A stretch of 64,000 bases of DNA from Oceanithermus profundus DSM 14977 (GCF_000183745.1 NC_014753.1:62001-126000), one strand, 5' to 3'; shown: positions 4,151 through 45,483, counted from the stretch's first letter. Notes: a model not told the origin generated them from the sequence alone. Numbers and translations are program-made.

Positions 4151-5122
4151 TTAGGACTTGAGCTTGGGGAGCATGATCCGCTTGAACTTTTGCAGGAAGT
4201 CGTCGAACGTCGCCTTGGCCTCATCGTCTTCGAGGATCTCCTCGAGCCGCTTCAGCTCGGTGATCACGCGGTAGAAGCTGATCTCTACCTGCTCCCTGGA
4301 GAGCTCCTTGGCCCTCTTGGACCGCGCATCTCGCAGCATTCGCCGAAGGCCCTCCTCGGAAACCCCCTCGAGGGCGGCTGCGAAGAGGCGCTCGAAGAGC
4401 TCCTCGTCGTTCGCGACGCTGGCCACGACCGCCGCGGGACGGTAGGCGACCCTCTTCTCGCGCACGGCCTCGCGAAGTTCGGGGGGCCAGAAAAGCGTGC
4501 GCAAGGCAGACCGCGAAAAATACTCGGCGGAAAGCCCGAGTTGGCCGAAAAGCGCCGCCACCTCCTCGTCCTTGGGGGTGCGAATCCCCTTCTTGCGCAG
4601 GCGATTGACCTGGCTGCGGAGCTCCTCCGGGGTCTCCAGGATGCCGTTCTTACGCATCAGCTTCAGGACGACCTCCGCGAGCTCGACCGGCGTGAGGTCT
4701 GCGCGGTTCGTGTTTTCCATCGCGGCCACGAGGTCGAGGTCCTCGGGGGCGGACTCGGGGGTGTAGACGATGGCCTCGATGGTCTCCTCGCCCAGTCGCT
4801 GGACCGCGCGCAGCCGGCGCTCGCCGGCGATCAGCTGGTACCGCTGCCCGGGCTCGAGCTCGATCACGGAGATGGGCTGGAGCAGGCCGTGCTCGCGAAT
4901 CGAGGTCGCCAGTTGCTCGAGCTCCTTCTCGTCGAACTCGACGCGCGGCTGTTCCGGGTTGGGCTCGATGGCGGCCACGGGGATGCGGCTGAGCGCCTTG
5001 AAGCCCTTGAGGCTTTCCGGCGTTGGCCGCTCCTTCGGCGCTCCCCGCTTCACGGCGGCCTTCTTGGCGGCGTACCGCCTCAAGACGACGTCAGTAGCGG
5101 AGGGGTTTTTCTTCTTAGCCAC
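4151..5122 (-). CDS. parB: ParB-family partition protein
   Basis: Centromere-binding CTP-switch protein of a plasmid ParABS system, about 323 aa. The ParB/Spo0J N-domain is clear: residues IPVAAIEPNPEQPR, then LATSIREHGLLQP, then the CTP-motif segment YQLIAGERRLRAVQRLG, and a helix-turn-helix region (TPVELAEVVLKLM). I prefer the GTG at 5122, because the GGGAGG at the end of parA lies 8 nt upstream; the GTG at 5131 sits too close to it. It overlaps the parA stop by 8 nt, so the two are translationally coupled. The short lysine-rich C-terminus (FKRIMLPKLKS) could aid DNA binding. Confidence 0.92.
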   Translation of the reverse strand: MAKKKNPSATDVVLRRYAAKKAAVKRGAPKERPTPESLKGFKALSRIPVAAIEPNPEQPRVEFDEKELEQLATSIREHGLLQPISVIELEPGQRYQLIAGERRLRAVQRLGEETIEAIVYTPESAPEDLDLVAAMENTNRADLTPVELAEVVLKLMRKNGILETPEELRSQVNRLRKKGIRTPKDEEVAALFGQLGLSAEYFSRSALRTLFWPPELREAVREKRVAYRPAAVVASVANDEELFERLFAAALEGVSEEGLRRMLRDARSKRAKELSREQVEISFYRVITELKRLEEILEDDEAKATFDDFLQKFKRIMLPKLKS

Positions 5123-6179
5123 GGAGGACACCTCCCAATAGGTTTCGGCGCTGCGCGACCTCGGTCAAGATCTGGGCCACGGTGAAGTGGAGGTCCCCTT
5201 CGGTCGGGCCCTCGAAGCTCAGGGGTCCGTTTAGCTCAGCGTTTCGGAATACGCCAGGCCGCATGTGCACGGGCGAGAAGAGCCGGCCCGACCCCTCCTC
5301 CTCCGTCAAAACCGCCTTCAGGGCCTCGTAGATCGAGGCGTCGGCGGTCCCGCGAGGGCGGTACATGAACGGCACGACGCCCAGGAAGGTGTCCTCGAGG
5401 TCGTGGAGAGCGGCCTGCTGCTCGACGTACTCGAGGACCATGGGGAGGCCCTGCAACCCCTTGAGCGAGGTCTGTACCGGGACGAGCAGCAGGTTGCTCG
5501 CCGTCAGCGCGGCGTTTACCGCCGCCCCCTCGCCTCCGCGGGTGTCGATGACGATTAGGTCGTACTCGTCGGCCTGCTTTTGCAGCGCCATCTTGAGGGC
5601 CGCTGTGCCGCCCAGGGCGGTACGGACCAGCCGCTCGAGCTCCCCCAGCCCTCGGTTCGCGGGAATGACGTAGGGACCGTAGTTGGAGACCAGGGGCTCC
5701 GGAAGCGGCTTGCCCTTGAAGATCGGCAGGATCGTCTCGTCATCCTCGATCTCGCGCTCGATTTCCCCCAGTAGCCAACCCGAAAGCGTGCCCTGGGTGT
5801 CGGTGTCGACGACCAGGACCCGCAGACCCGCGCGCGCCGCGGCAACGGCGATTTCCCGGGCCAGCGTGCTCTTCCCCACCCCGCCGGCCTCGCTGTACAC
5901 CGCAACGATCGGCGTCGGGCGGTCGGCCCCCAAACGAATCCATCCTCGCTTGGTGGCCGCGGCGAGCGCCTTCGCCGTGGGGTGGTAGTGCCCCTTCTCG
6001 CCCCCGTTTTGGTAGTAGGCGACGTAGCCGTGTTTTACGGCCTGTTTGACGCGAAACAGCGCCGCAGGGGGACGAATACCCCAATGTTGCGCGAGCTGGC
6101 CGTTGATCGTAGGAAAGCTACCGCCCTCTACGAACATGCGCGCCAGTTCGGCGCCTACTTCTTCATAGTCCACCGGCAT
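5115..6179 (-). CDS. parA: ParA-family partition ATPase with N-terminal winged-helix-like region
   Basis: Deviant Walker-A ATPase that moves plasmid copies, 354 aa from MPVDYEEVGAEL. The deviant Walker A is YSEAGGVGKSTLA (about residue 99) and the Walker A' region is LVVDTDTQGTLS; IVIDTRGGEG is the switch/Walker B strand. The first about 90 residues (LARMFVEGGSFPTINGQLAQHWGI...) look like a DNA-binding extension, as in ParA proteins that autorepress. The start at 6179 is chosen for the GAGGAGG site 6 nt upstream. An imperfect palindrome overlapping the likely promoter supports autoregulation (inference). Confidence 0.92.
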   Translation of the reverse strand: MPVDYEEVGAELARMFVEGGSFPTINGQLAQHWGIRPPAALFRVKQAVKHGYVAYYQNGGEKGHYHPTAKALAAATKRGWIRLGADRPTPIVAVYSEAGGVGKSTLAREIAVAAARAGLRVLVVDTDTQGTLSGWLLGEIEREIEDDETILPIFKGKPLPEPLVSNYGPYVIPANRGLGELERLVRTALGGTAALKMALQKQADEYDLIVIDTRGGEGAAVNAALTASNLLLVPVQTSLKGLQGLPMVLEYVEQQAALHDLEDTFLGVVPFMYRPRGTADASIYEALKAVLTEEEGSGRLFSPVHMRPGVFRNAELNGPLSFEGPTEGDLHFTVAQILTEVAQRRNLLGGVLRG

Positions 6180-6253
6180 GGTATCCTCCTCGGCCACCAG
6201 TATAATACGCGCACGGGTATTAAAAGGAGCCTTTTGGGTTCCATGCCGGTGGA
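6169..6253. repeat. 13-bp perfect inverted repeat spanning the parA start and promoter
   Basis: TCCACCGGCATGG (6169-6181) and its exact complement (6241-6253) flank the presumed parA promoter. The left arm covers the parA start codon. The right arm starts a tiny plus-strand reading frame with the same first codons (MPVD...). Confidence 0.7.
6190..6221 (-). promoter_or_regulatory. Probable parA promoter/operator
   Basis: The minus strand carries TATTATACT about 19 nt before the ribosome site. An 18-bp imperfect palindrome (AATAC...GTATT, 6204-6221, 7 of 9 positions matching) covers the spacer, where a ParA/ParB autorepressor could bind. No CCCATT box is present. Confidence 0.4.
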
Positions 6254-6289
6254 TACGCACAAGCACCGTGCTCGGCGTGAAAATTCCGC

Positions 6290-6955
6290 CTAGGAAGCCG
6301 CAGGTTCGAGGACCAGGGGGATGCCAGGAACGACGCCGGTCGCCGTCACGCGCGCTGCGTAGTGCGTTTTTCCGTCCTTTTCCCAGCTCTCGCGGTTGAA
6401 ACGGCCAAATACGGTCAGGGGGTCGCCCTTCTCTGCCTGGGCCAGGGCCTCGGCAAGCGGCGACCAGATCGTGATGTCGATGAAGTCGGCATCGGGACGC
6501 TCCTTGCCCTCGGGAACGTAGTCGCGACTGACCGCAAGGGTCACGCGAAGCGGGCCGCGCTCGCTGGACTCAGGGGTCGCGACCAGACGGCCCTGCAAGT
6601 TCACCTGGTTCACCGCCGGGAAAGGGGCGCTGCCCTTACCGAAGGGCTTGGCTTCCGCGTGCGCCACCCGGTAGAGGTAGCGGGCAACGAGGGAAACCGC
6701 ACTCCGCTTCTCCTTCTTGTCGTTTTCCCAGGTGCGTTGCCGCAGGCTACCGACGACTGCGACCTCCTGCCCCTCGAGGCCATTATCGAAACGACGCGCC
6801 TGGGCGCCGAAGAGGCTCACCGGCACGACGAAGTTGCGCACCCGACCCTCTTCCTCGTAGGCCCCGATCAAGTTGAAGGTCACCAGCGTTCTGTCCCCGT
6901 CGAGCGCCTTCGCTTCGGCCCGCTCGACTTTTCCAGTTACGATTACTGCGTTCAT
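6290..6955 (-). CDS. ssb: Single-stranded DNA-binding protein with two OB folds (Thermus/Deinococcus type)
   Basis: Binds and protects ssDNA in replication or transfer, 221 aa. Two OB-fold repeats are visible: residues 1-105 (MNAVIVTGKVERAE ... VPVSLFGAQARRF) and about 118-215 (VNQVNLQGRLVATPE ... DFIDITIWSPLAEALAQ...DPLTVFGRF). This two-domain monomer is the hallmark of Deinococcota SSB, whose chromosomal form is somewhat longer. The usual acidic C-terminal peptide (DDDLPF-like) is missing: it ends PLVLEPAAS, so recruitment of partners through the tail may be lost. Overlaps the upstream ArdC-like gene by ATGA, indicating coupling. Confidence 0.9.
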   Translation of the reverse strand: MNAVIVTGKVERAEAKALDGDRTLVTFNLIGAYEEEGRVRNFVVPVSLFGAQARRFDNGLEGQEVAVVGSLRQRTWENDKKEKRSAVSLVARYLYRVAHAEAKPFGKGSAPFPAVNQVNLQGRLVATPESSERGPLRVTLAVSRDYVPEGKERPDADFIDITIWSPLAEALAQAEKGDPLTVFGRFNRESWEKDGKTHYAARVTATGVVPGIPLVLEPAAS

Positions 6956-9251: not shown

Positions 9252-10226
9252 ATGCACGATGATGCCAAGAAGTTCGAGACGGTCGTCGTCGCCCTCGGCG
9301 ACCTCGAGCCCCCCTACCCTCGCGCAATCGACGAGAGGCGGGTGGAGCACCTCGTCGAGGACATCCGCGAGCATGGGCTCAAAGAGCCTCTCCTGATCAC
9401 CTCGGATTCGATACCGCCCGAGAAGTGGTATGTCGTCGATGGCCTTCACCGCCTGGAAGCGCTCAGGCGCTTGGGTTGGTCCACGACTCACGCAGTTTGG
9501 TCCCCGACGCTGGTTCCAGAAGACACCCGCGCTCGAATCCTTTGGCGCGGAAGGCCGCCTGAGGTCGAGCGCGTCTGGGTGTTGATTGTTCGTGCGGCGC
9601 GGTCCCTCGAGGTTCCAGCTGAAGAGGCTCACGGTTTTTTGTTCGACCTCATTCAGGCCCTGCAACGCGCGAAGAGTCTTTTCGGCGACGTTCCGGCCAA
9701 CGAGGCCGTCAGGCTGGCCCGGGCCGCACTTGAGGAAGTGGAAGGGGATGCCGCCCCCTTGAACTCGTCTCTTCACGAAGCCATAGCGCTGATCGGAAGC
9801 GACCGGGCGCAGATCACCTCGCTTCACCTTAGTGAAGCGGGCATCCCCGACTGGGCAGAGTTTCTTCACGGCCGCCTGCGGCTTCTCGTCTTGCCCACCT
9901 TGTTTTTGGAAAAAGCCGTCAGGAACGGCATTTCTTCCTCTATGTTGTTCGCTCTCAAAGCGGCGCATGACGGTGGCGCCCCCGACGCTCTCATCGAGGC
10001 GTATTTGGAGCATCCCACCGGCGAAAATCTAGAGCGGCTCGAGCCATGGCTCAGTGACGGGAAGGAAGGAAAACAGGAACCAGCGACTGCGCTCATCACC
10101 AAAACCAAGAAACTCGCGCGCCTTATCCGCAAGAGACTTCGCGACACCCAGGATCCCAGTTTGCTCAGCCGCCTAAGTGAGATCCTTACTGAGGCCGAGA
10201 AGATTCTCGAGGAGGCGACCGCCTGA
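9252..10226 (+). CDS. ParB-like N-terminal-domain DNA-binding protein (orphan)
   Basis: 324 aa. Residues about 10-85 form a ParB/Srx-type domain: LGDLEPPYPRAIDERRVEHLVEDIREHGLKEPLLI followed by the nucleotide-binding-like YVVDGLHRLEALRRLGW. The rest is helical with no recognised domain; the C-terminal 70 residues are Lys/Arg/Glu-rich. There is no cognate ParA beside it. It is the only plus-strand gene in the first 29 kb, and it is transcribed straight into the palindromic repeat array that begins at its stop codon, which suggests that those repeats are its binding sites (inference). Could be a second partition factor, a copy-number regulator or a KorB-like global regulator. Confidence 0.8.
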   Translation: MHDDAKKFETVVVALGDLEPPYPRAIDERRVEHLVEDIREHGLKEPLLITSDSIPPEKWYVVDGLHRLEALRRLGWSTTHAVWSPTLVPEDTRARILWRGRPPEVERVWVLIVRAARSLEVPAEEAHGFLFDLIQALQRAKSLFGDVPANEAVRLARAALEEVEGDAAPLNSSLHEAIALIGSDRAQITSLHLSEAGIPDWAEFLHGRLRLLVLPTLFLEKAVRNGISSSMLFALKAAHDGGAPDALIEAYLEHPTGENLERLEPWLSDGKEGKQEPATALITKTKKLARLIRKRLRDTQDPSLLSRLSEILTEAEKILEEATA

Positions 10227-10227
10227 C

Positions 10228-10477
10228 CAACCCAGGGGGGGTGACATGTATCACCCCCCCTCCTCCGACCACCGTTCAACCCAGGGGGGGGGTGACATGT
10301 ATCACCCCCCCCTCCTCCGACCACCGTTCAACCCAGGGGGGGTGACATGTATCACCCCCCCTCCTCCGACCACCGTTCAACCCAGGGGGGGTGACATGTA
10401 TCCACCCCCCCCTCCTCCGACCACCGTTCAACCCAGGGGGGGGGGGACATAGGTATGTCCCCCCCTAATCAACGTTA
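10228..10477. repeat. Tandem array of about five palindromic 49-52 bp repeats
   Basis: Units start at 10228, 10277, 10329, 10378 and 10429. Each begins CAACCCAG and holds a palindrome with arms of 7-9 G, TGA / TCA, and 7-8 C around a CATGTA core (10235-10260, 10284-10312, 10336-10361, and about 10385-10412 with one extra C). A conserved linker CTCCTCCGACCACCGTT follows. The fifth palindrome is different: G7-ACATA-GG-TATGT-C7, perfect over 12 bp (10440-10465). The differing periods come from homopolymer length. There are no unique spacers, so it is not CRISPR. Candidate centromere, iteron origin or regulatory array. Confidence 0.85.
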
Positions 10478-10493: not shown

Positions 10494-10823
10494 CTACGCC
10501 GCCTGCGCCGCGCGCGCTTCGTACGTGCGCACTTCCCACCCCTCCGGGAGACTGAGCTTCAGGGCCTCCAGGAAGGGTACGGGCTTCTTCGTGAAATGCC
10601 GCCATTCTTCCCTCCTGGCGTCCCAGCCGAAACCGAGCGCCTTCAGCCGTTCGCGCACGGGGATGGCGCCTGCCTCCACGATGAAGAGCACCCCGCCCGA
10701 CACGCGCTCCACCCGCACGATGAGCAGTTGGCTGTACTCCTCTTCCTTGGCTCGGTGCGCGAAGAGGAACCGCCTCCTCGCACCCTCTTCCCGTTCTTGT
10801 CGGCTCTTCTTGGGCTTCTTCAT
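10494..10823 (-). CDS. Small hypothetical protein with LGFGWD...W motif
   Basis: 109 aa starting MKKPKKSRQER, with GGAGGTG 5 nt upstream of the ATG. A basic N-terminus precedes a compact alpha/beta region: SQLLIVRVERVSGGVLFIVEAG and LKALGFGWDARREEWRHF. The second resembles the short GxxWDxxxxxW motif of DUF5710-like domains found in plasmid DNA-processing proteins. Last gene of the small-gene cluster. Function unknown. Confidence 0.75.
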   Translation of the reverse strand: MKKPKKSRQEREEGARRRFLFAHRAKEEEYSQLLIVRVERVSGGVLFIVEAGAIPVRERLKALGFGWDARREEWRHFTKKPVPFLEALKLSLPEGWEVRTYEARAAQAA

Positions 10824-10847
10824 TGCACACCTCCACCGGGAGGAAGG

Positions 10848-10873
10848 CCCCACCCCGCGGCAGCGGGGTGGGG
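10848..10873 (-). promoter_or_regulatory. Leader hairpin before the 10494-10823 gene
   Basis: 11-bp stem CCCCACCCCGC, loop GGCA on the plus strand (UGCC in the transcript). No U-run follows. Confidence 0.7.
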
Positions 10874-10890
10874 GGACGCGTCTTGGAAAC

Positions 10891-11328
10891 CTAGGCCGCC
10901 TTCTGCTGCTGGCGCTCCCACACCACGCGCCCGTGCTCCGAGAGGAGCGCGTGCGCCTCGGCGTAGGAGAGCGAGGCCGGGTCGTCGTGCAGCCCCAGCT
11001 TCTCGATCTGGGCGATCTGCCCGGGCTTGGCCGGCGCGGTTGCGGCGAAGGCCTTGACCTGCTTCTGCATCTCACGGGCGTTCTCGGGGGTGATCTCGTC
11101 CACCCCGGGGAAGCCCACGCGCTTCGCGTAGGCCTTCAGCGCCGCGACGGCCTCCTCGCTCCAGGTCTTCTTGACCTCGGCGCGGGGCATGGCCAGCAGC
11201 TCGTTGTACTTGGCCTTGTAGGCCTTGCTCTTGCGGAAGTAGTCGCCGTTGGGCGCCAGCTTCACGCCGCGGCTCTTGGCGAGCTGCTTGAGGGCCTGGA
11301 TCTGGTTCTGGGTCACTTCGTTGTTCAT
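10891..11328 (-). CDS. Small hypothetical protein with PxQ...L..LG C-terminal module, copy 1
   Basis: 145 aa from MNNEVTQNQIQ; AAAGGAG lies 5-6 nt before the ATG. It is Lys/Ala-rich and helical (residues 1-90), then PGQIAQIEKLGLHDDPASLSYAEAHALL, a short Q...L..LG...S..EA..LL module that recurs in two other genes of this cluster. Such modules resemble the DUF3072-like segments of phage and plasmid proteins. Its coding sequence appears identical to 11837-12274, so two copies are made. Function unknown; a DNA- or protein-binding adaptor is one possibility. Confidence 0.8.
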   Translation of the reverse strand: MNNEVTQNQIQALKQLAKSRGVKLAPNGDYFRKSKAYKAKYNELLAMPRAEVKKTWSEEAVAALKAYAKRVGFPGVDEITPENAREMQKQVKAFAATAPAKPGQIAQIEKLGLHDDPASLSYAEAHALLSEHGRVVWERQQQKAA

Positions 11329-11376
11329 ACGCACTCCTTTCTCCCGGAGGCTCCCACCCCCGGACACTCACCAGCG

Positions 11377-11402
11377 CCCCACCCCGCGACAGCGGGGTGG
11401 GG
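11377..11402 (-). promoter_or_regulatory. Leader hairpin before the 10891-11328 gene
   Basis: 11-bp stem CCCCACCCCGC, loop GACA on the plus strand (UGUC in RNA). Ends shortly before the ribosome site. Confidence 0.7.
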
Positions 11403-11419
11403 GAGAGGGGCTTGGGGTC

Positions 11420-11770
11420 TTAGGCGACCTGCGCCTGAACGGCGGCCTGACCGGCATCCTTGGGGTTCCGGTGGATGACGAAATCCGACCAGACGGTCAG
11501 AGCCAGACCAGCCTCCTTCTGGCTCAGAGGCTCGTTCCACGGCCACCCCAGGCGCTTCAGCTCGGCCATCTGCTCGGGCGTCGCGGGCTGGAGGTCGGGC
11601 ACGACGGCGCTAAGCAGCGCCCGCGGGTAGAACTTGTTGGCCTTGGTGTCGAACACGGGCCGCACGACGTTTCCGTCCCGGATGAAAGCGACCGCGTGCC
11701 CGTCGCTGGTGTAGCGACGCACCAGCACCCCTTGGTCCAGATTCACTCCTACTTCCGTGCTTTTGTTCAT
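11420..11770 (-). CDS. Small hypothetical protein with PxQ...LK.LG module
   Basis: 116 aa from MNKSTEVGVNL, GGAGGTG 4 nt upstream. An N-terminal beta-rich region (VLVRRYTSDGHAVAFIRDGNVVRPVFDTKANKFY) is followed by TPEQMAELKRLGWPWNEPLSQKEAGLAL, the same Q...LK.LG...S..EA.LA layout as in the neighbouring genes. Lies between the two copies of the 602-bp repeat. Function unknown. Confidence 0.78.
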   Translation of the reverse strand: MNKSTEVGVNLDQGVLVRRYTSDGHAVAFIRDGNVVRPVFDTKANKFYPRALLSAVVPDLQPATPEQMAELKRLGWPWNEPLSQKEAGLALTVWSDFVIHRNPKDAGQAAVQAQVA

Positions 11771-11793
11771 GCACACCTCCACCGGGAGGAAGG

Positions 11794-11819
11794 CCCCACC
11801 CCGCGGCAGCGGGGTGGGG
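11794..11819 (-). promoter_or_regulatory. Leader hairpin before the 11420-11770 gene
   Basis: Copy of the 10848-10873 hairpin (loop UGCC in RNA) within the second repeat. Confidence 0.7.
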
Positions 11820-11836
11820 GGACGCGTCTTGGAAAC

Positions 11837-12274
11837 CTAGGCCGCCTTCTGCTGCTGGCGCTCCCACACCACGCGCCCGTGCTCCGAGAGGAGCGCGTGC
11901 GCCTCGGCGTAGGAGAGCGAGGCCGGGTCGTCGTGCAGCCCCAGCTTCTCGATCTGGGCGATCTGCCCGGGCTTGGCCGGCGCGGTTGCGGCGAAGGCCT
12001 TGACCTGCTTCTGCATCTCACGGGCGTTCTCGGGGGTGATCTCGTCCACCCCGGGGAAGCCCACGCGCTTCGCGTAGGCCTTCAGCGCCGCGACGGCCTC
12101 CTCGCTCCAGGTCTTCTTGACCTCGGCGCGGGGCATGGCCAGCAGCTCGTTGTACTTGGCCTTGTAGGCCTTGCTCTTGCGGAAGTAGTCGCCGTTGGGC
12201 GCCAGCTTCACGCCGCGGCTCTTGGCGAGCTGCTTGAGGGCCTGGATCTGGTTCTGGGTCACTTCGTTGTTCAT
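11837..12274 (-). CDS. Small hypothetical protein with PxQ...L..LG module, copy 2
   Basis: The same 145-aa protein as 10891-11328; the flanking DNA is identical as well. The start ATG at 12274 has AAAGGAG upstream. The lack of even silent differences points to a very recent duplication or ongoing gene conversion. See copy 1 for content. Confidence 0.8.
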   Translation of the reverse strand: MNNEVTQNQIQALKQLAKSRGVKLAPNGDYFRKSKAYKAKYNELLAMPRAEVKKTWSEEAVAALKAYAKRVGFPGVDEITPENAREMQKQVKAFAATAPAKPGQIAQIEKLGLHDDPASLSYAEAHALLSEHGRVVWERQQQKAA

Positions 12275-12322
12275 ACGCACTCCTTTCTCCCGGAGGCTCC
12301 CACCCCCGGACACTCACCAGCG

Positions 12323-12348
12323 CCCCACCCCGCGACAGCGGGGTGGGG
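12323..12348 (-). promoter_or_regulatory. Leader hairpin before the 11837-12274 gene
   Basis: Copy of the 11377-11402 hairpin (loop UGUC in RNA). Confidence 0.7.
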
Positions 12349-12365
12349 GAGAGGGGCTTGGGGTC

Positions 12366-12656
12366 TTAGGCCGCAGCGCGAACCGCCACCGGCCGGCGGG
12401 CTCGCCGGCGCTCGGCGCGCTTCGCCTGCACCTGCCGGGCGCGCACCGCGTCGCGGTACATGGCGAGCGCGAGGGCGAACCTCACCCCGCCCACGTCCGC
12501 GAGACCGCGGTAGAGCTCGAACCCGTCGTAGTGCGCCACCATCAGAGGCGGCACTCCGTCCTCGCCGCGCAGGGCTTCGGCGAGGACCTTTGGGTCGGCG
12601 TCCGGCCTCGCTTCGAGGACGAAGTCCTCGGTCTCGAAGGTCACGACCCGCCTCAT
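12366..12656 (-). CDS. Small hypothetical protein with basic C-terminus
   Basis: 96 aa from MRRVVTFETEDF, or 99 aa from a GTG at 12665. An alpha/beta N-terminus (VVTFETEDFVLEARPDAD, HYDGFELYRGLADVGGVRFALALAMYRDAV) ends in a strongly basic tail rich in RAERRRARR. The ATG overlaps the stop of an 8-codon upstream frame as ATGA, and that upstream frame carries the only good ribosome site, so translation looks coupled. Function unknown. Confidence 0.7.
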   Translation of the reverse strand: MRRVVTFETEDFVLEARPDADPKVLAEALRGEDGVPPLMVAHYDGFELYRGLADVGGVRFALALAMYRDAVRARQVQAKRAERRRARRPVAVRAAA

Positions 12657-12679
12657 CCGTTCCACCTCGTCTTCTTCAT
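12653..12679 (-). CDS. 8-aa leader peptide or mis-framed true start (MKKTRWNG)
   Basis: Encodes MKKTRWNG and stop. GGAGGTGCGG precedes its ATG with normal spacing, and its TGA overlaps the next ATG. Either it is a coupling peptide or one base is missing and it is the real N-terminus of the next gene. Confidence 0.4.
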   Translation of the reverse strand: MKKTRWNG

Positions 12680-12704
12680 CCGCACCTCCTTCGCTCTGGT
12701 CTCG

Positions 12705-12730
12705 CGCCGCGGGGCTGCCGCCCCGCGGCG
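12705..12730 (-). promoter_or_regulatory. Leader hairpin before the 12366-12656 gene
   Basis: 11-bp stem CGCCGCGGGGC with plus-strand loop TGCC. The loop is inverted compared with the other hairpins of the cluster. Confidence 0.65.
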
Positions 12731-12731
12731 G

Positions 12732-13214
12732 CTACGCGGCCTTGGCCTTGCGGCGCTCGGCCTGGATCGCGGCCAGAAGCCGCTTGGCCTCGTCCCGTGT
12801 CGCGGGCGTGGGCCCGTCGTAGCCGAAGTTGGCCAGGGCCTGGAGCTGACCCTGGGTGGGGGAGAGGTGGTTGCGCACCACGTTGACGTAGTAGGTCTGC
12901 CAGAACTCCAGCAGCCGGGTCGCGCCCTCCTCGGTCCGCGGCATGGGCCCCGGGTAGCGCAGGTTGCGGAGCTGCGTGAGCTGGCCCGGGCGCGCCGCGG
13001 GCCCGTCCCCGCGGTCGTGCACCTCGAGCACCGCCTCAGGGTCGAAGAAGGCCTCGGGGCCGGTGCTGAAGACCGCCCGCCGCTCCCCGCCCACGACCAC
13101 GTACCCCTCGTGGACCCCGTTGGGACGGGTCACGATCTCGTCGAAGTTGCCCGCGTCCACCATCGCGGCCAAGCCGCGAACGCGCTCGATCGCTTGCTTC
13201 TGAACCTCGTCCAT
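12732..13214 (-). CDS. Small hypothetical protein with two PxQ...L..LG modules
   Basis: 160 aa from MDEVQKQAIERV, with GGAGGTAGAC before the ATG. The N-terminal half has beta strands (EGYVVVGGERRAVFSTGPEAFF). Then come two tandem copies of the cluster's module: RPGQLTQLRNLRYPGPMPRTEEGATRLL and TQGQLQALANFGYDGPTPATRDEAKRLL, about 45 residues apart. The second is closest to the phage/plasmid consensus. A long upstream extension of the frame runs through the hairpin and is not coding. Function unknown. Confidence 0.78.
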   Translation of the reverse strand: MDEVQKQAIERVRGLAAMVDAGNFDEIVTRPNGVHEGYVVVGGERRAVFSTGPEAFFDPEAVLEVHDRGDGPAARPGQLTQLRNLRYPGPMPRTEEGATRLLEFWQTYYVNVVRNHLSPTQGQLQALANFGYDGPTPATRDEAKRLLAAIQAERRKAKAA

Positions 13215-13240
13215 GTCTACCTCCTTCGCCCCATGCACGC

Positions 13241-13264
13241 GCCCTCCCGCGACAGCGGGAGGGC
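13241..13264 (-). promoter_or_regulatory. Leader hairpin before the 12732-13214 gene
   Basis: 10-bp stem GCCCTCCCGC, plus-strand loop GACA. Confidence 0.7.
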
Positions 13265-13293
13265 GGCTTCCTCGACCTCGTGACCCTTCGAGC

Positions 13294-13467
13294 TCAGCGC
13301 TTGAACCCGAGGGGGTAGTCGTACTGGCTCGGGCGGCTGAAGGGCGGACGGAAGAGCCGCAAGGCCCACCGCGCGGCGCGCCAGATCGACCAGCCACCGT
13401 AGACGACCAGAATCGGGATGAAGAAGGCGCTCCCGAAGAACGCCATCGTGTACAGGAACTCCTTCAT
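13294..13467 (-). CDS. 57-aa single-pass membrane protein
   Basis: Starts MKEFLYTMAFFGSAF. One hydrophobic segment (residues about 4-26, FFGSAFFIPILVVYGGW) is followed by a basic stretch (RAARWALRLFR), so the N-terminus is probably outside. GAGGAGG lies 4-5 nt before the ATG, and the stop of the upstream gene is 19 nt away, so it belongs to the operon. Too small for function prediction; may anchor or regulate a neighbour. Confidence 0.7.
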   Translation of the reverse strand: MKEFLYTMAFFGSAFFIPILVVYGGWSIWRAARWALRLFRPPFSRPSQYDYPLGFKR

Positions 13468-13486
13468 CTCGCCTCCTCTCTCGGGG

Positions 13487-13741
13487 TTAGGCCCCCATGG
13501 CCTCGAGCCTGTGCAGCAAGCCTTCGAAGGACGGGCGGATCGCCCGCTCCTGGCGCGGGTTCACCCGGGCCAGCCCCTCGAGCGCCACCCGAACACGCTC
13601 TACGTCGCCGCGCTCAGGCATCAGCGCCGCCGCACCCGCGGCCTGGTACAGCCCGGCCAGCGCCTCGGCTTCACCCTTGAAGCCCCGCGCCGTGGCCCGG
13701 GCTTCGGCCGCGACCAGGTAGTCGAGCAACCTCACGTCCAC
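13487..13741 (-). CDS. Possible independent start of the C-terminal module of the ankyrin fusion
   Basis: 84 aa from GTG at 13741 (VDVRLLDYLVAAEARA...), same frame as the ankyrin gene. The GGAGGTG 5-6 nt upstream and the preceding hairpin match the other modules, so it may also be made alone. All-helical, function unknown. Confidence 0.5.
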   Translation of the reverse strand: MDVRLLDYLVAAEARATARGFKGEAEALAGLYQAAGAAALMPERGDVERVRVALEGLARVNPRQERAIRPSFEGLLHRLEAMGA

Positions 13742-14263
13742 ACGAACACCTCCGCTCCTTGAAAGCGCGCCCCGCCCCCGCGACAGCGGGGCGGGGGATT
13801 TCTGGGCTTGCCGTGTTGAGTCAGTAGTAGTCGAGCCCAGCGCCTGGGCCTGCTGCTGCAAGGCCTTGAGGGCGGCCTCTCGGCTGGCCTCCATGGCCTC
13901 CCTCAGCTTGCTGGCATGCTGGTCGTTGCCCTCGCGCTCGGCCCAGTCCAGGGGGGTTTCACCATCGTCGTCCTTGATGAGCGGGTCTGCACCCCGCTCG
14001 AGGAGGACGTTGAGCAAGGCCGGTGGCGCCAGCATTGCCGCCCAGTGCAGCGGGGTGGCCCCAACCATGTCCTTGAGATTCGGATTCGCACCTGCCTTGA
14101 GCAAGAGTTTGACCGCGCTCTCGTGTCCGTAGCGAGCTGCGACGTGGAGCGCGGTACCGCCGTCGGCAAAGCGGGTGTTCGGGTCCTGGCCGTTGCTCAA
14201 AATCTCTTCCAGAGCCGCCACGTTGCCCAGCTCAGCCGCCAGCAGCATCTTTTGGTCGTACAT
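13487..14263 (-). CDS. Ankyrin-repeat protein fused in frame to a second small protein
   Basis: 258 aa. Residues 1-125 are three to four ankyrin repeats: DGGTALHVAARYGHESAVKLLLKAGANPN, GATPLHWAAMLAPPALLNVLLERGADP, GETPLDWAEREGNDQHASKL. After an Ala/Gln helix the frame reads straight through the hairpin and ribosome site of the next module (about residues 157-174, SPAPLSRGRGALSRSGG). It then enters a helical 84-aa unit (VDVRLLDYLVAAEARATARGF...) with its own GTG start at 13741 and GGAGGTG upstream. Elsewhere in the cluster the frame stops before the hairpin. A one-base shift near 13830 would restore an ending LDYY-stop, so the fusion may come from an indel. Ankyrin repeats mediate protein binding. 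Confidence 0.8.
   Translation of the reverse strand: MYDQKMLLAAELGNVAALEEILSNGQDPNTRFADGGTALHVAARYGHESAVKLLLKAGANPNLKDMVGATPLHWAAMLAPPALLNVLLERGADPLIKDDDGETPLDWAEREGNDQHASKLREAMEASREAALKALQQQAQALGSTTTDSTRQAQKSPAPLSRGRGALSRSGGVRVDVRLLDYLVAAEARATARGFKGEAEALAGLYQAAGAAALMPERGDVERVRVALEGLARVNPRQERAIRPSFEGLLHRLEAMGA
13768..13797 (-). promoter_or_regulatory. Leader hairpin inside the ankyrin fusion frame
   Basis: GC-rich stem with one bulged C and plus-strand loop GACA (13782-13785). It precedes the GTG at 13741. Confidence 0.6.
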
Positions 14264-14288
14264 ATTGACCTCCTCGAGGAATGCACGC

Positions 14289-14312
14289 GGCGCGCTGCGA
14301 CAGCAGCGCGCC
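14289..14312 (-). promoter_or_regulatory. Leader hairpin before the ankyrin gene
   Basis: 10-bp stem GGCGCGCTGC, plus-strand loop GACA. Confidence 0.7.
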
Positions 14313-14335
14313 GGCAGTCTCAGCCCCCTCCTGCC

Positions 14336-14872
14336 CTACCGAAGCAGCCTTGCGATCTCCTCGAGGGCCCCGTCGTCGAAGAGATTCACGACCGGGATCC
14401 CCTGAGCTCGAGCGATTCTGATGCTCATGCCCGTACCCCCGACGACCTTGCCGTCCTTGGTCCACGCGATGACGAAGCGCACCGGGTCGTCCAGGTTCTT
14501 GCCCATCAGGATCTGCGCGTTGCGGGCATGGAGTCGCCGCACGAAGTCGCTTAGCCGGTCCCATGCGGGGTGCTGGGCGCGCGCAAGCTCGAAGGCGGCG
14601 TCGGGGATGCTCGAGGAGACCCGAACCTTGTTACCGTAGCGCTCCTGGGTGTGCCCTTTGTGCCTCCGGGCTGGGAGGTAGAGTTCCACAGGAGTGTCTG
14701 CCTTCAGCGCCCCCTCGAGGAACGCCTGATCCGCCCCGTCGGCTCCTCCGGTGCGAAGGGTGTACCCAAGCTGACCCAGTCGCTCGGCGATGCGCGTCAT
14801 CAACCGCCGCACCTCCGGGGGTGTTGCTCGAGCTCCGATCCCCGCATACGCCAGCCCTTGCTTCACAGACAT
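14336..14872 (-). CDS. SLOG-domain (DprA/LOG-like Rossmann) protein
   Basis: 178 aa from MSVKQGLAYAGIGARATP; TGGAGGTG precedes the ATG. The N-terminus has the SLOG signature: a beta strand LAYAGIGAR, a helix (PEVRRLMTRIAERLGQLG), then YTLRTGGADGADQAFLEGAL with the glycine-rich nucleotide or ligand loop. The second half (DPVRFVIAWTKDG...GGTGMSIRIARAQGIPVVNL) matches the rear of the same Rossmann fold. Phage and plasmid SLOG proteins of this size may bind ssDNA or nucleotide signals; the exact ligand here is unknown. Distinct from true DprA, which is about twice as long. Confidence 0.8.
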   Translation of the reverse strand: MSVKQGLAYAGIGARATPPEVRRLMTRIAERLGQLGYTLRTGGADGADQAFLEGALKADTPVELYLPARRHKGHTQERYGNKVRVSSSIPDAAFELARAQHPAWDRLSDFVRRLHARNAQILMGKNLDDPVRFVIAWTKDGKVVGGTGMSIRIARAQGIPVVNLFDDGALEEIARLLR

Positions 14873-14880
14873 CACCTCCA

Positions 14881-14931
14881 CCCTACCCGCGCGTAGCGTC
14901 GCGGCCGCGACGCTACGGCTTCGGGGTAGGG
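14881..14931 (-). promoter_or_regulatory. Compound leader hairpin before the SLOG gene
   Basis: A 26-bp perfect palindrome (14892-14917, CGTAGCGTCGCGG with its complement) sits inside an outer pairing of CCCTACCC with GGGTAGGG. The upstream gene stops inside it. Confidence 0.65.
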
Positions 14932-15134
14932 GAGAGGCGCCCCACAGGTACACGGAACCGCACCGCGTCCCCCCTGCGCTCGAGGAAGCGGGCTCCGTGT
15001 ACCCCTTCGAGGGCAAGTAGGTGCTCGAGGGCAGAGCGGCTCACGGCCTCTGCTTCCCTGAGCTCGAGCGCCCCCGTAGAGGTGTCGAGAGTGGCAGGGA
15101 AGCCTGCCGCGCCCCCTACGCGGAAATTCTTCAT
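14913..15134 (-). CDS. Small hypothetical protein
   Basis: 73 aa from MKNFRVGGAAGFPATLDTSTGA. Alpha/beta pattern: REAEAVSRSALEHLLALEGVHGARFLERRGDAVRFRVPVG. The ATG overlaps the stop of the upstream 58-aa gene (ATGA), so it is coupled. Its stop TAG lies in the stem of the following hairpin. Function unknown. Confidence 0.65.
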   Translation of the reverse strand: MKNFRVGGAAGFPATLDTSTGALELREAEAVSRSALEHLLALEGVHGARFLERRGDAVRFRVPVGRLSPTPKP

Positions 15135-15310
15135 CAGGCGTAAAGCTCCGCAAGGCCCTCCTCGATGGCCCACTTGGCCTCGAGGCGGAGCGCCTTCTTC
15201 CCGTGCTCCTTGATCTCGCGGTTGATGGCGCGCCGCGCCTTGTTGGCGGCGGCGTACTTACGCTCGACGCGCAGTAGTTTGGCCATCCCGTAGTGTCCAC
15301 GGATCTTCAT
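15134..15310 (-). CDS. Small basic hypothetical protein
   Basis: 58 aa from MKIRGHYGMAKLLRVERKY, with CAGGAGGTGACC before the ATG. Highly basic N-terminal half (KYAAANKARRAINREIKEHGKKALRLE) and helical throughout, a possible nucleic-acid-binding peptide. First recognised gene of the small-gene cluster. Function unknown. Confidence 0.65.
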   Translation of the reverse strand: MKIRGHYGMAKLLRVERKYAAANKARRAINREIKEHGKKALRLEAKWAIEEGLAELYA

Positions 15311-15333
15311 GGTCACCTCCTGCAATGTCCTCG

Positions 15334-15359
15334 CCCCGACCCGCGGCAGCGGGTCGGGG
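15334..15359 (-). promoter_or_regulatory. Leader hairpin before the first small-cluster gene
   Basis: 11-bp stem CCCCGACCCGC, plus-strand loop GGCA (UGCC in RNA). Confidence 0.7.
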
Positions 15360-15870
15360 GCTATGGGTCGGTGCCGGAAAGGCACCTCTCGCCAACCAGG
15401 GACCGGCTAGGACGCCCGTAAGCGGTTCGCCCGGTGTCTACCCTTGGCGACAACGCCTCGAGGCGCTTCTGCGGCCTCTGAGGAGCTCGAGGCGTCTACG
15501 CAGTCCCCTTCAGGCCACCCGCCCCTTGAAGGGGGCGCTCGAGCCCGTACCCGGGGGCCGGGCCCGCGCGGTTTGCGGTAGGGGGGTAGACCTTCAAGAC
15601 CAAGGGGGATCTGGGTAAGCAGTGCTTCCCCCTCCGCCTTCCCTCGCTGCACCCGAACGACAGTGAGGGTGCAGGCATCGCCCGATCAGAACTCGAGGAG
15701 CCGGGACGCCGTCATGGCCGCTGCCGTATCGAAACCCACAAGTCAGTGCACGCTCGAAAGGTGGCGCTCGAGCCCGCCTGCCTCCGCGCTGCGCACTTGG
15801 GGGTTCTGCTATGCCGCAGCATCATCCGAGGGCAGGGTGCCGATACGGTGTCGAGCTCGAGCTGTAGTTA

Positions 15871-15910
15871 CGGTCCAAGACCGGACCCGCTAGGGGACGG
15901 TCTTGGACCG
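15871..15910. repeat. Perfect 13-bp inverted repeat
   Basis: CGGTCCAAGACCG (15871-15883) and its complement (15898-15910) around a 14-nt loop. Would form a strong hairpin in a transcript toward the small-gene cluster. Confidence 0.75.
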
Positions 15911-15962
15911 GCGGTAAGTTTCCCGGTTATATGTAGTGTAGGGTAGGCCAGCTACGAAAAAT

Positions 15963-16050
15963 ACGGTGGAACACCGCTGCAAAGCCGTGGGTTTAGGAGG
16001 CGGTGTAAGACCGCAAATCGCGCAGGAACATGAGGGCGGTAGTACACCGC
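15963..16050. repeat. Three palindromes GCGGT-N5-ACCGC at 36-37 bp spacing
   Basis: 15963-15977 (first base A instead of G), 16000-16014 and 16036-16050. Steps of 37 and 36 bp, about 3.5 helical turns. Looks like an operator or iteron set. Confidence 0.65.
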
Positions 16051-16083
16051 GTATGGTCCGTTGAAGCAGCCCCACCAGTCAAT

Positions 16084-16114
16084 GGCGGCGGGAGCTTGGT
16101 TGCCGCCCGCCGCC
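16084..16114 (-). terminator. GC-rich hairpin after the coiled-coil gene
   Basis: 9-bp stem GGCGGCGGG with its complement at 16106-16114, 22 nt after the stop at 16136. No U-run, so termination is uncertain. Confidence 0.4.
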
Positions 16115-16135
16115 AACAAGGATAAATACTAAGGG

Positions 16136-20514: not shown

Positions 20515-21053
20515 TGCTCCTTACCTCCATACATCGACTCGAAAACTGCCTCGAAGGCTTCCAGGGCCCTATCTGCGACCTCGTCTAGGGGGTTTCCTTC
20601 GGCGATCGTGTAGCCGGGCGGGGGTTGGGGAACGTATTCATAAGGCTGGGCCCGAAGGAACACCTGCGAAAACCATTTGGCGTGGCCATGTTCGCGCACT
20701 ACCCGTACCGAGCCCCCAGGCTTCCAGACGCCATCACCAACGAGCACGATCCCGCGGTGGATCAAGATGCTCGTCTTCATTCGCGGCGCCAGGCGCACGA
20801 TCAGCCCGGGCACTGTGCTGAGGTGGCGGGTGTAGGCATCAGGATCGAAGGCTGCTCGGGCGTCAAGAACCATCGAAACGATGACGCCCGAGTGGGCAGC
20901 CCGAGCAAGTGCGAGGGCTATCTCTTCGTCTTTTATGCTGGGCGCAGCCAAGAGCAAGACGTCGCCAGGCTGCGCGCGAGAAATTACCTCGAGGGGCGCA
21001 GGTTGTGCAAAAACAACCCCCAAGATTGTGATAAGGGCGATTAAAGCGCGGAT
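20511..21053 (-). CDS. Secreted degenerate PLD-like protein, half 2 (apparent ATC start)
   Basis: About 180 aa. PLD-like half-fold: VISRAQPGDVLLLAAPSIKDEEIALALARAAHSGVIVSMVLDA, then RMKTSILIHRGIVLVGDGVWKPGG at the HxK(x)4D site, where His is replaced by Arg, so a nuclease or lipase reaction is unlikely. A full signal peptide (RALIALITILGVVFAQ) appears only if translation begins at an ATC (21053), placed 5 nt after a perfect AAGGAGGTGG; no ATG or GTG exists in that frame. A TTG at 21023 would remove most of the signal. The 5' end overlaps the coupling-protein gene. Confidence 0.65.
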   Translation of the reverse strand: MRALIALITILGVVFAQPAPLEVISRAQPGDVLLLAAPSIKDEEIALALARAAHSGVIVSMVLDARAAFDPDAYTRHLSTVPGLIVRLAPRMKTSILIHRGIVLVGDGVWKPGGSVRVVREHGHAKWFSQVFLRAQPYEYVPQPPPGYTIAEGNPLDEVADRALEAFEAVFESMYGGKEQ

Positions 21054-23479
21054 ACTCCACCTCCTTCGTTGCGCGCGAACAGTTCACCGTAGCCCTGCTC
21101 CAGCGATTCGTCGCGCAGCATTCCGTAGGCGAGGCGACCCCTTGGCAGGGCACGCCACTCGTTGGGATTCGTAACCCCCAAGGCGAGGAGATCGGCCACG
21201 CGCTCTTCTCCCCACTTGGAGAGCGGGGTGCTGACGTGCACGAAGATCGAGCGTGAGGGTTCGTCGACGATGACGAGAGCCACACTTTGGGCGGCCACAC
21301 CTCGAGCCACCTTGCCCATCTCCTCGAGTTTTTTGAGCTGCCCGCGGATGGCGGCGTTTTCACGTAGCCGTCGCAGTAGGTCGTCTTCCAGAAGGGCCAG
21401 AGCGGCGCGCGTTAGCACCCAGCCGTCCCGATGCCTGGCCACCCAGCCGCGCTCCACCCACTCGTCGGACAAAGCCTCCCGGGTAAGCCCGAGTACGCGC
21501 ACCATGCCGATGTTGCCCTCGCGATCGCGCACAGCCTCGAGGGGCGCCGTGGCGTCGATAAGCTCCTTGACCCAGCCCAGGAAGCCGGTGATCGAGGCGT
21601 CCTGCTCGCTTCGTCCGTTCGCGTTCTCGTCGCCGCGCTCGCTGTAGTGGGCCTTCCACTCCCTGGCGTAAGCGAGGGCGTTTTGTTTGATGCTTGCCCA
21701 GTTCCGATGCAGAGGGTGGCGGGGATCGTCCAGCAGTACGGCTTGGTAGATCACGAAGGGCACGTAGTGCATCTTGGCCAGTACGGTACCTTGTTCGGCC
21801 CGCTGCATCTCCTCCCTGGAGTAGACCGGCTTCTTGCCCAGCCGCCTTGTTTGTTTGGCTTCCACCTCGTGCACGGGGGAGAGTTGGCGCATCAGGGCCT
21901 CCTCGACGATCACCTTGTCGCCCACCGCCTTCTCCAGGTCTTCGCGTGCCTTGTCGCCGAGACCGCCAACGTAGAAAATCTTGGTTCCGGTGTTGTTGCC
22001 CGTGAGCTCCTTGAGGCCCTCGGGGCCGTATATGGACTCGATGGCGGCCCGGTCTTGAATGATGATGTGGAAGGCGACGTTCATCGACCTGAACAGCGCG
22101 AGGCCTTCGGAAATATGAGGGAGCTCCCCGAAGTTCTGGAACTCGTCAAGTACGTAGTGCGTTAAATAGGGGAGCTCTCCGCCGTGGTTTTCCACGGCGG
22201 CCTGGTAGAGGCCGTCGTCGATCCAGATCTTGAGCAGGCGCATCAGCACCTTGTTCGAAACGCTCATCACCTTGGTCTTGGGAAGACCAATGTAGAGAAG
22301 CGAGGGCTTCTCGAAAATCGTTGTCAGGGACAGGTTTTCCCCCGGAGCCCCTCGAGAGGTGGCGCGGTCGACGTTGGGATCTTCGAGGAAGACCGCGATC
22401 TTCTTCCTCAAGGAGCGCATGTACTCGGGGACCCCCCGTATCTTGCTCTCTTCGCCAAAGATGACCCGCCCCCACTTCCATGGGTCGTTGGCTGGGCTGG
22501 TTGCGTACCGGCTTGCTTCTTGTAAGACGTCGGCGACCTGTTTGGGGTCTCCCGTGTTGAAGAGCTCCACGATCTCGCTCATGCGAGCGGCTCGGCCTTC
22601 GGCGCGAGCAATGAGCGCCACGGCGAGGGCCGCAACCGCGAACATCTCACGGTCGATGTCCCGGTAGAAGTCCACCGACTCCTCTTTGGCTGGCGCGATC
22701 AGCGCTTCCGCCAGCTTGGTGGCCGTCATGTAGTCCACCACCATGTCGAGCAGCGGTATGCGCGGGGTGTCGGGATCGTAAGGAGCGTAGGTGTACACCG
22801 GGCGTTCGAAGTGGCGAAAGATGGGCAGCACGTCGACCAGACCGCTTGGCTCTCCGTACTTCTGGTCCCAGGCGATCATTCCCTGGCGGTGGTGTGCTGC
22901 GCTGATCGCCAGCGACATGACGTAGGTCGAAGTCTTACCCTCGCCCGTCCCGGCTTCGACGAGCACGTGCCGCGCTAGTTCTTTTGGGGGGAGCTGCACG
23001 TACTTTTTGGGCCGCCCCTCGAGCAACCCCAGGAAAACGGCCCCATCGCTCAGCCGCCCTTCGCCCAGGTAGCCATGCTTCTTGAGGTCGTCCTCTTTGG
23101 CGAGGCCGCCTTCCGCCGGCAGTTCGGGTTTTCTCCCGGGCCAAAAGGCTACGGCGATGAACGACAAGGCGGCCGCCGCAGCAGATGCGAGCGGCCAGCG
23201 GTAATCCGGTGCATGGACGCTCTGGTAGTAGCGGTAGATCTCCATGCAGTTGGCCCCAGGGTGCTTCGCGTCCCACGCGTAGCAGCGCGACAGGAACGAA
23301 ATCGGGTTGTCGTAGCGGATCACCTTGTGCCAGCCCGAGTCGTAGGTCGCGCGCGTGGCCGCGATCACGCTGTTGGCGTAGCTTCGTGCGGCAAGAACCC
23401 CCGCCAGGACCATGAAGAACAGGCCGATTAGCAGCGGTATGTACAGGGGGCGGCCGAGGAGAGCTCGAGCGGGGTTCAC
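21041..23479 (-). CDS. virD4: VirD4/TraD-type coupling ATPase
   Basis: Hexameric pump that delivers the DNA-relaxase complex to the channel, 812 aa. Two N-terminal membrane helices (about 12-31 and 95-113) enclose a periplasmic loop with two cysteines. Walker A is EAGTGEGKTS (175-184), with E in the P-loop; Walker B is VLDEFQNFG (443-451). A long C-terminal region (about 600-812) contains a winged-helix-like part (LLGLTREALSDEWVERGWVARHRDGWVLTRAALALLEDD-type). GTG start overlapping the TrbL-like stop (GTGA). Confidence 0.9.
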   Translation of the reverse strand: MNPARALLGRPLYIPLLIGLFFMVLAGVLAARSYANSVIAATRATYDSGWHKVIRYDNPISFLSRCYAWDAKHPGANCMEIYRYYQSVHAPDYRWPLASAAAAALSFIAVAFWPGRKPELPAEGGLAKEDDLKKHGYLGEGRLSDGAVFLGLLEGRPKKYVQLPPKELARHVLVEAGTGEGKTSTYVMSLAISAAHHRQGMIAWDQKYGEPSGLVDVLPIFRHFERPVYTYAPYDPDTPRIPLLDMVVDYMTATKLAEALIAPAKEESVDFYRDIDREMFAVAALAVALIARAEGRAARMSEIVELFNTGDPKQVADVLQEASRYATSPANDPWKWGRVIFGEESKIRGVPEYMRSLRKKIAVFLEDPNVDRATSRGAPGENLSLTTIFEKPSLLYIGLPKTKVMSVSNKVLMRLLKIWIDDGLYQAAVENHGGELPYLTHYVLDEFQNFGELPHISEGLALFRSMNVAFHIIIQDRAAIESIYGPEGLKELTGNNTGTKIFYVGGLGDKAREDLEKAVGDKVIVEEALMRQLSPVHEVEAKQTRRLGKKPVYSREEMQRAEQGTVLAKMHYVPFVIYQAVLLDDPRHPLHRNWASIKQNALAYAREWKAHYSERGDENANGRSEQDASITGFLGWVKELIDATAPLEAVRDREGNIGMVRVLGLTREALSDEWVERGWVARHRDGWVLTRAALALLEDDLLRRLRENAAIRGQLKKLEEMGKVARGVAAQSVALVIVDEPSRSIFVHVSTPLSKWGEERVADLLALGVTNPNEWRALPRGRLAYGMLRDESLEQGYGELFARNEGGGVSAL

Positions 23480-42728: not shown

Positions 42729-42730
42729 GA

Positions 42731-44986: not shown

Positions 44987-44993
44987 CGCAAGG

Positions 44994-45022
44994 AGTATAG
45001 GAGGCGCGCCGTGCGGAATGGG
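44994..45022 (-). promoter_or_regulatory. CCCATT-type promoter of the minor-pilin unit
   Basis: CCCATT (45017-45022), 17 bp, TATACT (44994-44999), 7 nt to the ATG. Confidence 0.75.
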
Positions 45023-45042
45023 CGCAAAATTGGAGCCGCTCG

Positions 45043-45483
45043 CTAGCGCAAGACGGCGCGCCCGTTGACGTAGTAGGTCTTGATGTGCCCGTCGACCCAG
45101 GTGACGACGGCGAAGCGCTCGCCCGCAGCGCTCACGTCGAGAACGCAGCGCACGCTGGGGGGTGCTTGCGGCCACCTCACCGCCGTGTTCACGTTGACCC
45201 CAGCGGTGCAGTCGTAAAGATCGCCGGCCGGCGTGTACCCTGGCGGCGTGCTCGAGGCCGAAGCCAAGCCAGCGACCGTCACGAAGTCGTTTACGGTCTT
45301 GTTGACCTTTTGCAGCAGGTAGTTCTGCACCGCCTGGTAAACGATTCCTCCGTGGCTTTGGGCCATGAGTTCGTCCTGTTGCGACTGGGCGCGTTGCCCG
45401 CGCGGCGCCAGGAAGACGATGAGCACCGCGATAATGGCCAGGACGATCACAATTTCGATGAGGGTAAACCCGCTTCGCTTCAT
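45043..45483 (-). CDS. Type IV pilin-like protein
   Basis: 146 aa. MKRSGFTLIEIVIVLAIIAVLIVFLAPRGQ is a canonical class III prepilin N-terminus. A globular part with two cysteines (DLYDCTAGV, SVRCVLDVS) and a late YYVNGRAVL. Coupled by ATGA to pilC; ends 56 nt before the minor-pilin promoted unit. A second major or minor pilin. Confidence 0.88.
   Translation of the reverse strand: MKRSGFTLIEIVIVLAIIAVLIVFLAPRGQRAQSQQDELMAQSHGGIVYQAVQNYLLQKVNKTVNDFVTVAGLASASSTPPGYTPAGDLYDCTAGVNVNTAVRWPQAPPSVRCVLDVSAAGERFAVVTWVDGHIKTYYVNGRAVLR

Follow-up and report, generated by a model that had tools for sequence, protein, structure and literature searches.

A row of small genes split by hairpins on a conjugative plasmid of Oceanithermus profundus

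A conjugative plasmid of the heat-loving bacterium Oceanithermus profundus DSM 14977 carries a row of small genes split by hairpins; stem sequence varies between the hairpins, whereas loop and size are nearly constant, and in most modules the hairpin stands at an almost fixed distance ahead of a start codon. These hairpins most likely protect or process the message of each gene. More specifically, we propose, with somewhat less than even confidence, that they are intercistronic mRNA stability or processing elements, each forming part of an "expression linker" found ahead of most genes in an operon of accessory genes. The window, i.e. the whole stretch of DNA analysed, is 64,000 nt long and corresponds to bases 62001-126000 of a 135,351-base contig (NC_014753.1), one of the two contigs of a 2.44 Mb genome; all positions given here are those of the window.

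The array has a conjugation block on one side, with genes for a VirD4-type coupling protein (21041-23479) and a VirB4/TraG-type ATPase (26165-28828), and parB/ssb on the other (a ParB-like gene with a weak match, 9252-10226, and SSB, 6290-6955); a ParA-type ATPase is encoded at 5115-6266. Between the parB-like gene and the array end lies a 51-bp tandem repeat of 4.3 copies (10228-10465), in which each repeat contains a palindrome of the type GGGGGGGTGACATGTATCACCCCCCC, together with a variant hairpin. This repeat has no further occurrence in the plasmid sequence examined; a partition site and a bidirectional terminator are both possible roles. A region of ~780 bp without a clear gene (15361-16135), which separates the array from the conjugation genes, contains an 18-bp inverted repeat (15871-15910) and several CTCGAG sites; it is a candidate promoter/leader or transfer origin. 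The same plasmid encodes an S-layer protein with SLH and SlpA beta-barrel domains (1805-4078), and a type IV pilus/type II secretion-like block with a secretin, a T2SS F-type protein and prepilin-like N-terminal motifs (40455-50508).

The array consists of twelve small minus-strand genes (10494-15310; codon-typical GC3 0.76-0.97), of which two are joined through a probable frameshift, with ten minus-strand hairpins among them. Read along that strand, the hairpin at 15334-15359 (11-bp stem CCCCGACCCGC, loop UGCC) is followed 23 nt on by the ATG of a 58-aa orphan (15134-15310). The start of the next gene, a 73-aa orphan (14913-15134), overlaps the preceding stop and has no hairpin there; its own TAG is overlapped by the hairpin at 14892-14917 (11-bp stem CGUAGCGUCGC, loop GGCC, with an outer stem), which stands 19 nt before the ATG of a gene for a 178-aa SLOG/DprA-like protein (14336-14872; phrog_768, E 3.7e-52) with a relative in Thermus phage TSP4. 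The hairpin at 14288-14313 (11-bp stem CGGCGCGCUGC, loop UGUC) is 24 nt from the ATG of an ankyrin-repeat gene (13487-14263), which is fused to the next small gene across the hairpin at 13768-13796 (one bulged base, loop UGUC, 35.1 bits with our covariance model). The GTG start of the downstream part is 24 nt beyond that hairpin, and the fused ORF translates through it; a TGA stop in another frame occurs shortly before the hairpin, and the fusion of the two genes may stem from a frameshift or a sequencing error. After a small hydrophobic protein of 57 aa (13294-13467), the hairpin at 13240-13265 (11-bp stem CGCCCUCCCGC, loop UGUC) precedes by 25 nt the ATG of a 160-aa orphan (12732-13214), and the hairpin at 12705-12730 (11-bp stem CGCCGCGGGGC), whose loop is inverted within normally oriented flanks, has an ATG 25 nt on. 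The gene that follows is a 99-aa orphan (12366-12665) with an uncertain start. In this region (12640-12680), the ATG best spaced from the ribosome site opens an 8-codon ORF whose end overlaps the start region of 12366-12665, a candidate leader peptide or frameshift.

The remaining modules include an exact duplication. A 602-bp block, comprising a leader, a gene for a 145-aa orphan and a second leader, is present on the minus strand at 10824-11425 (gene at 10891-11328) and again at 11770-12371 (gene at 11837-12274). The hairpin at 12323-12348 (stem CCCCACCCCGC, loop UGUC) has an ATG 48 nt on, with a second small hairpin in between, and is copied at 11377-11402; the hairpin at 11794-11819 (stem CCCCACCCCGC, loop UGCC), 23 nt before the ATG of a 116-aa orphan (11420-11770), is copied at 10848-10873, 24 nt before the ATG of the last array gene, a 109-aa orphan (10494-10823). 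Because 10848/11794 and 11377/12323 belong to the repeat, the ten separate hairpins of the preliminary description reduce to eight independent ones. It also placed a hairpin before nearly every small gene; not all genes have one, and none is present at the overlap of two genes (15134) or in the 19-nt gap at 13467/13487. Protein relatives of the array genes were found only for the SLOG/DprA-like protein and the ankyrin repeats; three array proteins compared for paralogy share just a short weak motif, and a PADLOC search for a defence role matched the ankyrin repeats and, as a weak PsyrA hit, the SLOG protein, but no other array gene.

Nine of the ten hairpins combine a perfect 11-bp stem with a 4-nt loop, for a total of 26 nt, so that the stem length described earlier as 10-11 bp is exactly 11 bp in all but hairpin 13768, which is interrupted by its bulge. 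All ten hairpins described are present at the places given, and eight have UGCC or UGUC as the RNA loop (10848, 11377, 11794, 12323, 13240, 13768, 14288 and 15334); the loop differs at 12705, where it is inverted (GGCA), and at 14892 (GGCC). Besides the loop, conservation extends to the pairs that close it and to the outermost pair of the stem, C-G; an unpaired C also flanks the stem on each side in all perfect-stem modules, mostly in GC[..]CG. Tetraloop stems of at least 10 bp number nine in 10494-15359, as compared to a mean of 0.023 and a maximum of 1 in 300 dinucleotide shuffles, which rules out a chance product of GC-rich DNA, the composition effect that the preliminary description had itself put forward as an objection.

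The pairing of these stems has been maintained while their sequences diverged. In six aligned copies, eight of the 11 pairs are changed on both sides and none on one side only, a count that is made within copies of one array, probably related, and is not a probability. All 66 of 66 cells are paired, versus 38-59% in slid controls, and all measures are above the controls. The earlier suggestion of selection for structure thus holds for the maintained pairing, with covariation limited to one array. The six aligned stems contain no G-U pairs; as a rough baseline, terminator-like hairpins of the same genome have ~9% G-U pairs, and 33 of 57 lack any. A complete absence of G-U is unusual for a constraint acting on RNA only, and in this respect counts against an mRNA element; it hints at most that maintenance at the DNA level would fit as well as selection on RNA.

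The position of the hairpins connects them to the genes that follow. From hairpin base to start codon, the eight independent modules measure 23, 19, 24, 24, 25, 25, 48 and 23 nt, i.e. 23-25 nt in six of eight, with 19 and 48 nt in the other two. The distance from the upstream stop to the hairpin, where known, is -5, 22, 28, 1, 17 and 17 nt. Uniform placement in the same gaps yields a start spacing this tight with P ~0.009. Each hairpin is followed on the gene strand by a Shine-Dalgarno sequence and a start codon, and the 8 nt past the stem contain 0-3 T without a run. Since the spacing is constant to the start and variable to the stop, and there is no U-tract, we consider the hairpin a leader element of the downstream gene. 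The same observations bear out the earlier view that these are not ordinary terminators.

We built a covariance model, R1, and used it to ask where else the hairpins occur, with chromosome statistics drawn from 11 samples of 20 kb and from a genome-wide model search. Array hairpins score 22-45 bits, the lowest being 12705 with its inverted loop, and the top match beyond it, in a search of the plasmid and the chromosome sample, reaches 23.0 bits; the genome-wide search gave no site beyond the array at E up to 1. This confinement to one array, in the plasmid, the chromosome sample and the genome-wide search, rules out ordinary terminators of the species-wide kind. A search across the Thermales had been proposed at the outset; among 111 genomes of the phylum, which served as both the order-level and the phylum-level sample, the model gave isolated weak matches only, of which the three examined in context all fall within coding frames, and so no homologue with covariation was found in that sample. 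Rfam gave no match at gathering score in the window, and searches of plasmid and phage DNA gave no match. None of the 80 loci listed in a viral pattern scan (from a total of at least 80) has 9 of 11 pairs, stricter scans of viruses and genomes returned four loci, none of this hairpin kind, and no such hairpins surround SLOG relatives, including that of Thermus phage TSP4. The collections searched yielded no relative of these hairpins.

We propose that an expression linker would comprise the hairpin, 13-15 nt, the Shine-Dalgarno sequence and the start codon, and that transcription would read through the whole array as one unit. A scan for sigma-70-like promoters, the only type covered, found none within the array and nothing promoter-like after the hairpins, which fits one polycistronic transcript. 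At a high growth temperature, a GC-rich 11-bp hairpin may be a hard block to exonucleases. Endonucleolytic cuts would then leave gene-sized fragments, with the hairpin capping the 5' end of one against RNase J, and the same hairpin capping the 3' end of the fragment from its upstream neighbour. Indeed, the genome has an RNase J gene (523 bits). T7 carries intercistronic RNase III sites in its early region that are longer and irregular and are cut by RNase III; the array is alike in that hairpins lie between consecutive small genes, ahead of the ribosome sites. Unlike in the T7 early region, however, processing by RNase III is unlikely here, since this genome gave no full-length match to RNase III, only a partial one to the last third of the model. 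We rejected a role as translational insulator or mask of the ribosome-binding site: with folding at 60 C, mean accessibility of the Shine-Dalgarno sequence and start codon is 0.54, and 0.54 with shuffled hairpins. The hairpins thus leave accessibility unaltered, which favours stability or processing over translational masking or insulation.

Several features sit less easily with an mRNA element. A mere nuclease block needs neither a constant loop nor exactly 11 bp, and the loop at 12705 is inverted. Given that a roadblock leaves the constant loop unexplained, a reader of the loop is suggested, and a protein or nuclease may recognise the constant loop and closing pairs. The linkers may also supply short homology for swapping the ORFs between them. 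It is conceivable, though we think it unlikely, that the plasmid hairpins carry a loop-and-ruler code (11 bp, UGYC/GRCA, an unpaired C at each side) and that a protein reads it, the code marking the array modules for exchange or processing; such a family would have no relation to attC, DGR or REP elements.

The main competing explanation, to which we give a small but appreciable probability, is that these are DNA-level sites: the hairpin would form in the template strand, or as a cruciform, and its loop and base would be read by an enzyme, such as a recombinase or a retroelement, that moves or alters the modules. Such sites would accord with stems made of Watson-Crick pairs only, with their perfect arms, template-strand loop GRCA and conserved unpaired C on both sides, with a module-like array of orphan genes that has undergone one exact 602-bp duplication, and with a loop inverted at 12705 within otherwise normal flanks. 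However, a constant distance to the start codon is not expected of them, and the duplication ends at ORF ends, outside the hairpins: one edge of the block is at a start codon and the other within a codon of a stop codon, and beyond these edges the adjoining ORFs are unrelated. Exchange within the hairpins would have made the flanks between hairpin and ORF differ, contrary to what the duplication shows. Together with the lack of a recombinase gene nearby, this weakens the earlier proposal of a recombination site that shuffles cassettes. The plasmid's tyrosine recombinase genes are tens of kb away, and their matches to XerC-type models are below the cut-off.

Known DNA-level systems resemble the array in part. 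The target hairpins of DGRs have GC-rich stems of 7-10 bp that vary in sequence, with a 4-nt loop, GRNA, on the sense strand, and they need a reverse transcriptase and TR/VR repeats (PMC3240598). The array hairpins share a GC-rich stem of free sequence near gene ends and a 4-nt loop that fits GRNA on one strand; they differ in that eight of ten have GRCA on the antisense strand, that their position tracks the start codon of the next gene, and that we found no reverse transcriptase on the plasmid and one sub-cut-off match on the chromosome. In integron attC sites, whose sequence is little conserved, it is the folded bottom strand that is recognised (PMC8946536). Like the array hairpins, these sites separate small same-strand genes by inverted repeats that are conserved in structure and variable in sequence. 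The array stem, by contrast, is short and perfect rather than an imperfect palindrome, and has no attC core pair: the cores RYYYAAC / GTTRRRY gave one stray match in twenty 40-nt hairpin flanks. No integron integrase lies beside the array, the best plasmid tyrosine recombinase scoring 70.4 bits with the integron-integrase model, whose cut-off is 265. Nor does the array fit REP/RAYT elements, since no Y1 transposase was found in the genome.

Terminators or attenuators that lack a U-tract and limit read-through between genes are, in our judgement, rather improbable. The hairpins are strong, GC-rich and intergenic, mostly past a stop codon, and clustered hairpins have elsewhere been proposed to act as terminators in some bacteria (PMC8355165); on the other hand, placement tracks the next start codon, the stem at 14892 overlaps a stop codon, the few T residues after the stem form no run, nothing promoter-like follows, and neither a constant loop nor an exact stem length would be needed. 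We regard as very unlikely a neutral by-product, in which one ancestral leader hairpin was copied along with the genes and its arms were kept perfect by arm-to-arm template switching, with no present function. This would account for arms that match perfectly although stems differ, with no one-sided changes, for the confinement of every copy to one array, and for the inverted 12705 loop, which is the expected outcome of such switching, but not for a loop, closing pairs, outermost C-G pair, length and start distance that have stayed constant while other pairs changed.

Repeated elements next to small genes are known from phages. T4-type phages have PeSL, stem-loop cassettes that carry an early promoter and lie at the borders of swappable small genes; the array is similar in having stem-loops at module boundaries of small genes, and dissimilar in that the scan, made for sigma-70-like sites, detected no promoter. 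The SAS/ESAS of Cluster K mycobacteriophages recur immediately ahead of the start codon in many non-structural genes, and in about half of the cases an inverted repeat precedes the start-associated sequence, a conserved 13-mer (PMC3203893). The ESAS has a conserved sequence and a spacer of mostly 4-13 bp, with little support for mRNA hairpins according to its authors (PMC3203893). Like SAS/ESAS, the array element is repeated just before start codons on one mobile element, but its stems vary, its pairing is perfect, its loop size is fixed, and the modules have only a Shine-Dalgarno sequence and no common 13-mer. SAS/ESAS, DGR hairpins and attC are the nearest in anatomy, but the array fails at least one defining feature that we tested for each, and we therefore class it as a variant intercistronic structured element outside these families.

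If the hairpins are mRNA elements, as we favour, they would be a compact, sequence-flexible route to a protected unit for each gene of a polycistronic message at high temperature, with a readable rule: 11 bp, a fixed loop, and a base ~24 nt ahead of the start codon. As DNA elements, they would instead represent a module border recognised by structure, outside the integron and DGR families.
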